This document shows positions 20,802 to 22,921 of a stretch of DNA of 45,746 bases, in pieces. This stretch comes from Bacteroidota bacterium (GTDB lineage Bacteria; Bacteroidota; Ignavibacteria; Ignavibacteriales; Ignavibacteriaceae): the NCBI GenBank assembly GCA_021815365.1, contig JAKAGZ010000019.1:1-45746 (forward strand). The letters run 5' to 3'. The translations under genes and the position numbers were made by a program. The notes below the pieces were generated by a model, which did no database searches, was not told the origin of the DNA, and was given only the letters and a program-made list of their open reading frames with translations. Within the stretch, counting starts at the first letter, position 1. Each line of letters opens with the position of its first letter.

Positions 20802-20850
20802 AATCTTTTCAATCTTGTAATCTTTTTAATCTTTCATTCTTCCCAATCTT
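20802..20850. repeat. Short tandem array, AATCTT every 8-9 bp
   Basis: Six copies of AATCTT or one-mismatch variants begin at 20802, 20811, 20819, 20828, 20836 (ATTCTT) and 20845, separated by short variable bases. On the transcribed strand the unit reads AAGATT. The array fills the gap between the 3' end of trpS and the start of scpA. It is too short and too irregular for CRISPR and does not code. Confidence 0.7.
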
Positions 20851-21830
20851 CACCCCAGCTTCATTTTGTCATGAACTTCGCTCATTGTCTGCACAGCCTC
20901 TTCCCTTCCCCTTTTCTCCCCGTCAGCAAGTATATCTTTCACTTCATCTAAATTTTTTTCGTAATATTTTCTTTTATCTCTTATAGGCTCAATCAAGTCA
21001 GAAATCTTTGAAGCACACTTCATCTTACAATCCAAACATCCGAGTGCGCCGGTTCTGCAGCCGGCATCAATTTCAGAAACTTCTCCTGCATTAAATTTCT
21101 TATGATAAGAAAAAACGAGGCAAATTTCAGGATTGCCTGGATCGCCTTTCCTGATCTTCTTGGGATCAGTAACAGCTTTTTTCATTTTGGCTTTTACAGT
21201 TTCGGGATCGTCAGAAAGTAAAATTGTATTACCCAATGACTTGCTCATCTTTGCATTGCCATCCAGCCCGGGAAGCCGTGCAAATTTTGTCAGCATCGGT
21301 TCTGGCTCAGGAAAAACATTTCCATATTGATTATTAAATCTCCGTGCAATCTCTCTTGAAATTTCGATATGAGGAACCTGGTCTTCACCAACGGGAACAG
21401 CATCACCTTTGTATAGAAGAATATCAGCCGCTTGAAGCACCGGGTATCCTAAATGACCAAAAATAATATTGTCGATGTGTAAATCCCTTACCTGGTCTTT
21501 CAAAGTGGGATTTCTTTCAAGCCTGTTCACAGTAATTAACATTCCGAAAATAAGATTTAGCTCTGTGTGCTGTTTTATCTGCGACTGCCTGAACATCGGG
21601 CTTTTCTTCGGATCCAATCCGGCAGCAAGCCAGTCTATCAGCATATCAATAGAATCTTCATAAATATTTGTTGTATCGGGATTCGTAGTTAGTGCGTGGT
21701 AATCTGCAATTAAATGAAAATTATTGTACTGATCCTGAAGATTGACCCAGTTTTCCAATGCTCCAACATAATGACCGATATGTAATTTACCGGTCGGACG
21801 CATTCCGCTAAGTATTCTTTTTTTCAGCAT
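20850..21830 (-). CDS. trpS: Tryptophanyl-tRNA synthetase
   Basis: Class I synthetase charging tRNA-Trp. The 326 residues begin LSGMRPTGKLHIGHYVGAL, which contains the HIGH signature, and carry KMSKSLGN later for ATP binding. DILLYKGDAVPVGEDQ and LPGLDGNAKMSKS are typical of TrpRS and not TyrRS. The C-terminal region includes a CRTGALGCLDCKMKC cysteine cluster that I recall from several bacterial TrpRS and that could bind a metal or iron-sulfur cluster; whether it does here is unknown. I see no tryptophan-responsive leader in the upstream bases, which hold a MITE-like repeat instead. Confidence 0.95.
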   Translation of the reverse strand: MLKKRILSGMRPTGKLHIGHYVGALENWVNLQDQYNNFHLIADYHALTTNPDTTNIYEDSIDMLIDWLAAGLDPKKSPMFRQSQIKQHTELNLIFGMLITVNRLERNPTLKDQVRDLHIDNIIFGHLGYPVLQAADILLYKGDAVPVGEDQVPHIEISREIARRFNNQYGNVFPEPEPMLTKFARLPGLDGNAKMSKSLGNTILLSDDPETVKAKMKKAVTDPKKIRKGDPGNPEICLVFSYHKKFNAGEVSEIDAGCRTGALGCLDCKMKCASKISDLIEPIRDKRKYYEKNLDEVKDILADGEKRGREEAVQTMSEVHDKMKLG

Positions 21831-21917: not shown

Positions 21918-22117
21918 TTAACCCAAATTTTCCATTAGGAAAACCTGTCCGTCCGGCAGGCGGGTTTGCCCTACGGGCAGATAAGCCATAATTCATTTTA
22001 ACAAAAATGATAATGAAGGATCGTTATTCTTCAAAACTAAACGTCAAAATCGTTGATGGCTTGTTCGGGGTTAACCCCGATAAAATCGGGGCATTCCTAA
22101 TGAATTTTTTGGGTTAA
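21918..22117. repeat. 200-bp MITE-like element with 24-bp terminal inverted repeats
   Basis: The left end (21918-21941, TTAACCCAAATTTTCCATTA...) and right end (22094-22117) are inverted copies: 10 outer and 9 inner positions match perfectly and five in the middle do not. Inside are GCCCTACGGGC (21968-21978), the perfect palindrome CGGGGTTAACCCCG (22066-22079) and the hairpin CCCCGAT-AAA-ATCGGGG (22075-22091). No target duplication is evident. The right end overlaps the stop codon of the HNH gene (22114-22116), so that gene ends inside the element. An apparent open frame here is a by-product of the repeat. Confidence 0.7.
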
Positions 22118-22617
22118 GATAGATAAAGATAAGGTTTCCAATTCTCGTCCAATTTTCCAACTACATTCTTGATGAACATAATATGGCTTGGTTTGAAAGG
22201 TTTATAAAGCAAACTGAGATTTGCTTCATCTGGTGTCCTGTCCCCTTTTTTATTGTTACACAAAGTGCATGCACAAACAAGATTCTCCCACGAATCACTG
22301 CCGCCCTTTGCTTTAGGGATTACGTGATCTATTGTCAAAGGCAGATCGCTTCTGCCGCAGTATGCACATTTATATGCATCTCTTCTCAGGATATTTTTTC
22401 GCGTGAGCACAACTTTCTTATATGGAATTGTAACAAAGTGGCTTAAGCGTATTATGCTGGGCCAAGGATAAATCTTTGCAACAGTTCTGAGCTGCTTTCT
22501 TCTGTCCTCAAGTATGAGTTCTGCCTTTCCAAGGTAAATAAGTATTATAGCTTTTTTAATATTACAGATTGTTAAAGGTTCATAGCTCTGATTCAGGATA
22601 AGAACCTTTGCATTCAG
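22114..22617 (-). CDS. HNH endonuclease, non-canonical start
   Basis: HNH-family nuclease of about 167 residues. The C-terminal domain has two zinc-knuckle pairs (Cys84/Cys87 and Cys117/Cys120), the His of LTIDHVIPKAKGGSD (His98) and Asn112 of WENLVCACTLCN. A well conserved N-terminal part (LNAKVLILNQSYEPLTICN, then LIYLGKAELI and YPWPSIIRLS) is fully open upstream of the first GTG (codon 70), so the real protein is longer than the C-terminal 98 residues. Between the upstream in-frame stop (22663-22665) and that GTG there is no ATG, GTG or TTG. CTG at 22615-22617 coincides with the expected N-terminus and is used here; a one-base indel after an out-of-frame ATG just upstream is the alternative. 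Function in vivo is unknown. Confidence 0.78.
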   Translation of the reverse strand: MNAKVLILNQSYEPLTICNIKKAIILIYLGKAELILEDRRKQLRTVAKIYPWPSIIRLSHFVTIPYKKVVLTRKNILRRDAYKCAYCGRSDLPLTIDHVIPKAKGGSDSWENLVCACTLCNNKKGDRTPDEANLSLLYKPFKPSHIMFIKNVVGKLDENWKPYLYLS

Positions 22618-22921
22618 CTTACCATTTACGTGTTTCGAAGATTCGAAGACTAACCTCCTTAATCATTTTTCTCATATATACTAAAATAAATCCTTAAAAT
22701 TAATATTACAACAACCCGGGATGGTTAATGTCACGTCAATTATGTAGTTTCTTTTAAGTTTCCGGTTTAATATCAAAGAATGACTGAATGGCTGAATGTT
22801 GGTCATACAGCCATTCTTCAATCAACCTTCTTACTGTTTTCCGCATTGAACTTCTTCAAATATTTTGAAAACGATTTCAAAGACTGAACAAATAATTAAA
22901 AAGTTTACATAAAACTATCAG
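22618..22921. other. Intergenic region between HNH gene and TonB receptor gene
   Basis: 304 bp without a supported gene. It holds the palindrome TTCGAA-GA-TTCGAA (22634-22647), an AGGAGG on the minus strand (22654-22659) too far from the CTG to serve it, and a hairpin at 22786-22816 described separately. A short open frame of 18 codons starts near 22675 in the frame one base off from the HNH gene and stops just before it. Confidence 0.5.
22786..22816 (-). terminator. Possible terminator hairpin after the TonB receptor gene
   Basis: Perfect 9-bp stem GAATGGCTG (22786-22794) / CAGCCATTC (22808-22816) with a 13-nt loop, about 100 bp beyond the stop of the receptor gene. There is no adjacent T-run on the minus strand, so termination is uncertain. 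GAATGACTGAATGGCTGAATG shows the left arm lies in a short tandem repeat of a 7-8 base unit, so this may be a repeat element instead. Confidence 0.35.

Follow-up and report, generated by a model that had tools for sequence, protein, structure and literature searches.

The HNH endonuclease gene and its missing canonical start codon

Where does translation of a gene begin if its reading frame holds no ATG, GTG or TTG in front of the conserved part of the protein? This question is raised by a minus-strand gene of an Ignavibacteriaceae genome, located in the window (the whole stretch of DNA analysed here, 45,746 nucleotides). Bounded by the TGA at 22663-22665 and the stop codon at 22114-22116, the frame is uninterrupted, and the first canonical codon in it is the GTG at 22408-22410, which is codon 70 if the CTG at 22615-22617 is taken as the origin of the count. 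No ATG, GTG or TTG lies ahead of this GTG; both the sequence and the list of open reading frames confirm what an earlier sequence-only reading of the locus had stated. In that list, which lets each frame start at the first ATG, GTG or TTG after a stop, the sole HNH entry is the GTG form (22114-22410, 98 amino acids), the very shortening to 98 residues that the same reading had expected from a standard annotation.

From the upstream stop codon the gene reads TGA TTA AGG AGG TTA GTC TTC GAA TCT TCG AAA CAC GTA AAT GGT AAG CTG, and the conserved core LNAKVLILNQSYEP starts at 22617, at the CTG. The protein matches the Pfam families HNH_5 (PF14279, 57.6 bits, cut-off 27.5) and HNH (PF01844, 57.0 bits, cut-off 21.4) above the curated cut-offs, and the HNH stretch covers residues 99-147 of the open frame. 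According to these matches the window gene encodes an HNH protein. The features of the gene are:

22663-22665, minus strand: in-frame upstream stop codon TGA, six codons ahead of the TTC
22654-22660, minus strand: Shine-Dalgarno sequence AAGGAGG, with 6 nt from the end of GGAGG to the TTC
22645-22647, minus strand: TTC, proposed UUC start codon
22618-22644, minus strand: codons 2-10 (ESSKHVNGK), class-specific linker
22117-22617, minus strand: conserved HNH core, from LNAKVLILNQ, first codon CTG, with the Pfam matches HNH_5 and HNH
22114-22116, minus strand: stop codon TAA

Judged from the comparison of related genomes, a start at the TTC at 22645-22647, which would give a protein of 177 residues in the window, is very probable.

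A Shine-Dalgarno sequence followed by TTC is conserved in the class Ignavibacteria

The search in the family and order covered 59 genomes including that of the window and gave matches in 56 of them; no match to the HNH gene was found in the remaining three (G005, G015 and G035). Two further genomes (G022 and G037) were dropped, since the match was confined to the short HNH stretch, leaving 54 loci that were read. All 54 contain an in-frame TTC 9 to 11 codons ahead of the core and behind a purine-rich stretch. The script used here required GA or AG directly after the TTC and a distance of 7-13 codons to the core, and every locus passed. Searches of the class and the phylum yielded matches in 191 of 197 and 226 of 296 genomes, respectively, of which not all were read: 133 genomes of the class (the 54 and 79 further ones, from 24 families) and 26 genomes of the phylum outside the class. 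A scan of named genomes added 80 loci, labelled Ignavibacteria, Ignavibacteriales, Kapaibacterium, Kryptonia, KSB1, unspecific Bacteroidetes and a few others.

Outside the family and order set the site was found by looking for TTC, which biases the result toward TTC, and a count of all codons served as control. With one row per genome, it recorded the in-frame codons between the upstream stop and the core that lie 4-11 nt behind a Shine-Dalgarno-like tetramer. Among the 133 class genomes TTC was recorded in 130, GAA in 52, GTC in 51 and AGT in 18; ATG, GTG or TTG taken together were recorded in three, and at the conserved start position a Shine-Dalgarno sequence is followed by a canonical codon in these three genomes only. 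In the three genomes missing from the TTC count (L133, L139 and L342) a TTC is present in frame, and the Shine-Dalgarno sequence ahead of it is poor. All 24 families contain at least one genome with the Shine-Dalgarno sequence and TTC: it is present in four of five genomes of family f6, three of five of family f9, and all genomes read of the other 22. The same arrangement was found in 52 of 56 further named, non-redundant loci, and the four loci without it are KSB1 records from outside the class. Since 82 of the 133 class genomes lack any in-frame ATG, GTG or TTG from the upstream stop up to where the core begins, the missing canonical start is more than a chance finding. Less in keeping with a start at the TTC, 31 of 163 loci contain an in-frame canonical codon ahead of the TTC and after the upstream stop, and 39 contain one between the TTC and the core, in some of them at the core itself.

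It also fits less well that an exact GGAGG is lacking in 64 of the 163 loci. In the 99 loci that have it, the spacing to the TTC is bimodal, with 5-6 nt in 54 loci and a rather long 9-10 nt in 37. The codon after the TTC is mostly GAA or GAG (74/163) or AGC or AGT (61/163).

This comparison bears out the proposal of an HNH gene with a non-canonical start, as do the Pfam scores, and it shifts the position of that start. The homologue alignment suggested earlier for locating the N-termini was carried out, and the conserved signal that it revealed is the TTC behind the Shine-Dalgarno sequence, ten codons upstream of the CTG. The CTG had been placed at the expected N-terminus; it is indeed the first codon of the conserved core, but homologues have CTT, CTC, CTA, TTA or TTG there. 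Because the codon varies, CTG is not a conserved start. An ATG eight bases ahead of the CTG and out of frame is present (22623-22625), as had been noted, and together with the CTG itself it is what could speak for a CTG start or for a recent indel or assembly error in the window genome. However, the same lack of a canonical start recurs in many separate Ignavibacteria assemblies, including the single-contig genomes G001, G018 and G025, which excludes an indel or assembly slip as the general cause; length changes among the assemblies of relatives are whole codons. We regard a CTG start or such an error in the window genome as having next to no probability.

Programmed frameshifting from an upstream reading frame with a canonical start was also considered. 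Such a frame is open through to the TTC in 74 and 56 of the 163 loci for the two other frames, but neither frame is general and no such reading frame is shared between the loci. The frameshifted start that had been suggested thus lacks support as a general mechanism, and we consider it highly improbable.

Outside the class the gene starts differently. In 28 of 30 loci (24 of 26 from the phylum, four of four from KSB1) an ATG is located within six codons of the core; of the remaining two phylum loci, the ATG of L157 is 18 codons away on the upstream side, and in L162 a GTG sits at the core. In KSB1 and in other Bacteroidota, where most loci read have such a nearby ATG, the small HNH proteins share the orthologous core with the class gene, whereas the class gene has the added linker and the UUC.

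The HNH stretch is also similar in sequence to the HNH domain of IscB and Cas9 (TbaIscB, E 3.1e-18), with the match limited to the HNH part of the window protein. Membership in these families was rejected, with NCBIfam scores of 72 bits against a cut-off of 175 for IscB, 46.6 against 375 for Cas9d and 26.1 against 100 for Cas9.

Protein-type constraint sets in after the TTC

The linker between TTC and core is 9 to 64 codons long in the 163 loci, most commonly 10 (74 loci) or 13 (34 loci), and the Shine-Dalgarno sequence and TTC are kept. For 20 independent pairs with ten-codon linkers, the ratio of synonymous to non-synonymous changes in the linker is 39:21 in frame, compared with 8:49 and 4:53 in the other frames; over the 11 codons upstream it is 19:91 in the same pairs. 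When 50 pairs with mixed linkers were counted, the ratios were 79:116 for codons +1 to +9 and 34:230 for codons -10 to -1, a contrast weaker than in the 20 pairs and of the same sense. The comparison shows that protein-type constraint sets in just after the TTC, and none is seen before it. The TTC itself is unchanged in all 50 independent pairs, while codon +1 differs in five, in four of them synonymously. Since the gene bodies use both phenylalanine codons (TTT 398, TTC 324), a plain phenylalanine codon at this site would be expected to vary. Relatedness in these counts is handled only by the pairing and the tally over families.

An in-frame stop is present at codon -2 in 32 of the 163 loci, which limits the start to codon -1, the TTC or a later codon. 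Codon -1 in these 32 loci is GTC in 21, GAC in five, GCA in three, and GAT, ATC and GAG in one each. The TTC might be a regulatory RNA or DNA motif, with the start at another nearby codon such as codon -1. GTC at this position in 73 and GAC in 25 of all 163 loci would agree with this, and GTC is a proven start codon in sigR of Streptomyces (PMC5472188). But 23 codon forms occur at -1 in the 163 loci, and in the window the GTC is only 3 nt behind the GGAGG. An RNA motif is also not apparent from structure prediction: the consensus fold of 73 TTC-anchored sequences has no pairs. We consider a start at a neighbouring codon improbable.

The strand of the window folds no better than shuffled sequences (z -0.16). 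A match to Rfam mir-1422 near the site (22.8 bits, cut-off 60) was taken as chance.

Coupling to or re-initiation from an upstream gene, with the quality of the start codon mattering little, was weighed as well. In 79 of the 163 loci a same-strand open frame of at least 60 codons ends between -60 and +40 of the TTC, in many cases at -3. The window is without such a gene; its upstream neighbour, a TonB-dependent receptor gene, ends about 270 nt away. Moreover, coupling gives no reason for a fixed TTC. It may help at loci with an adjoining upstream frame but cannot explain the window, and as the explanation of the start it is very unlikely.

Proposed initiation at UUC

The comparison between genomes shows a Shine-Dalgarno sequence, a conserved TTC, the onset of constraint behind it and ATG starts outside the class. 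A class-wide non-canonical start at UUC is the most likely explanation, and with high confidence we propose from these alignments that the HNH gene of the class Ignavibacteria starts at a UUC behind its Shine-Dalgarno sequence. UUC pairs with the CAU anticodon at the middle base only. The ordinary initiator fMet-tRNA with this anticodon would nevertheless be used at the UUC, and the Shine-Dalgarno sequence would make up for the missing codon-anticodon pairs. The 16S rRNA of the window genome carries CACCTCCTTTCT. Three of its tRNAs have the anticodon CAU, and one of the three, judged by eye, has the features of an initiator (C at position 1, GGG/CCC in the anticodon stem).

The infC gene, which codes for IF3, starts with AUU, AUC or AUA and is autoregulated by IF3. 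By analogy, IF3 probably holds the output of the HNH gene low; when IF3 is scarce the output would rise, and the putative nuclease would in this way be kept rare. Taken jointly, a UUC start, the use of the ordinary initiator tRNA and control by IF3 are somewhat better supported than not. Of 30 infC loci read in relatives (L303-L332), 29 start behind a Shine-Dalgarno sequence with ATC (22), ATT (six) or ATA (one); in three of the 30 a TTG occurs as well, in frame and ahead of the domain. Like the HNH gene, infC has a non-canonical start behind a Shine-Dalgarno sequence that is kept over wide groups, and it does so in the same genomes. The AUN codons, however, deviate from AUG in the third base alone and drift between ATC, ATT and ATA, whereas the UUC of the HNH gene differs at two bases and drift is unseen.

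As a control, folK was read in 30 loci from 59 matched genomes; in 29 of them a canonical codon lies in frame ahead of the domain or where the domain begins. Judged by infC and folK, weak starts are at hand in these genomes without being general. In folK of the window genome itself (L399 and L372, around 15388, G000 contig C83) the open frame contains no ATG, GTG or TTG before the domain, and an ATA lies behind a purine-rich stretch.

Another parallel is sigR of Streptomyces, whose GTC start is repressed by IF3 (PMC5472188); the start codon is GTC in 32 and GTT in two of 34 species in the same source. Like UUC, the sigR start has two mismatches to the initiator anticodon and is conserved in its group, and the strong Shine-Dalgarno sequence of sigR is AGGAGGTG in that source. 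The sigR start concerns one genus and was shown by experiment, whereas that of the HNH gene concerns a class, another codon and a different gene and is based on comparison. In vitro, UUC formed no initiation complex when IF3 was present, which counts against a UUC start; in favour of one, UUC complexes proceeded to 70S without IF3 and hardly with it (both PMC7907450). The predicted mean unpaired values for the Shine-Dalgarno sequence (0.36) and the TTC (0.32) are lower than those of the flanks (0.51-0.54); the site is predicted to be the more paired part, which is less fitting for a start.

A merely weak start would leave the fixed UUC unexplained, since the starts of infC here and of sigR drift and UUC was not seen to do so among the sequences compared. 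This leaves two options: a specific reader for the exact triplet, or an overlapping signal by which the triplet is held in place. In the first case UUC would be read by a tRNA other than the usual one, for example the elongator Phe-tRNA(GAA), or with the help of a class-specific factor. Such a reader would account for a triplet that is fixed while infC, with its near-cognate starts, varies within the group, and tRNA-Phe matches UUC fully. On the other hand, the window genome has one tRNA-Phe(GAA), with an ordinary sequence, and no second initiator-type tRNA with the anticodon GAA was found among its 41 tRNA hits. ARAGORN named 40 of these hits; the remaining one, whose 3′ end is listed as N, reads as Leu-type with the anticodon CAA. 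We know of no bacterial precedent for a UUC start read by a non-initiator tRNA. Overall, a non-usual reader seems unlikely. It is equally unlikely that initiation of this one gene depends on UUC being recognised exactly, instead of on a mismatch that the initiator tRNA tolerates, and that this has been so ever since the class arose. The start signal would then lie outside the AUG codon family, perhaps with Phe-tRNA or a special factor as its reader.

Few natural non-canonical start codons have been characterised. Searches of the open-licence PMC literature yielded no report of a natural UUC start in bacteria or of the start of this HNH gene. If true, a class-wide UUC start would widen the natural set of start codons, and gene finders limited to ATG, GTG and TTG would shorten the HNH protein in much of the class. 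The gene would also provide a natural mRNA for testing to what extent a Shine-Dalgarno sequence can stand in for codon pairing and how IF3 discriminates among start codons, and the contrast of a fixed UUC with infC starts that drift within the group raises a pointed question.

Search for other UUC starts

We scanned 817,700 bases, approximately 26% of the window genome, for frames of at least 80 codons with a TTC behind a strong Shine-Dalgarno sequence that lack a canonical codon both upstream and over the following 25 codons. This gave nine TTC cases, of which two share a frame. Near the start, the coding score is highest for the HNH frame (3.8). Two further frames without Pfam match are weakly positive, L221 (2.4 near the start, 6.2 for the whole frame) and L218 (0.4 and 6.9), and the frame of L220 scores 42.8 overall and -5.3 near its TTC. 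The scan is insensitive: the HNH frame itself reaches 0.04 per codon and was missed by a stricter version.

Surroundings of the HNH gene

Downstream of the HNH gene and on the same strand are trpS (20850-21830), scpA and scpB. Among the 90 loci with long flanks, relatives of trpS follow the HNH gene in 79 and relatives of scpA in 75. The upstream same-strand frames that end near the TTC in 79 of the 163 loci often code, by eye, for a small membrane protein or an NlpC/P60-like protein. In many relatives (L003-L015, L074, L075, L083, L084 and others) a small gene, missing from the window, ends at or near the Shine-Dalgarno sequence of the HNH gene; by eye its product is a membrane protein that has two hydrophobic segments. 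At 21938-21971, on the downstream side of the HNH gene, the window contains a GC-rich element resembling an inverted repeat (CTGCCGGACGGACAGG), of which one further copy is present in 771,954 other bases of the window genome.
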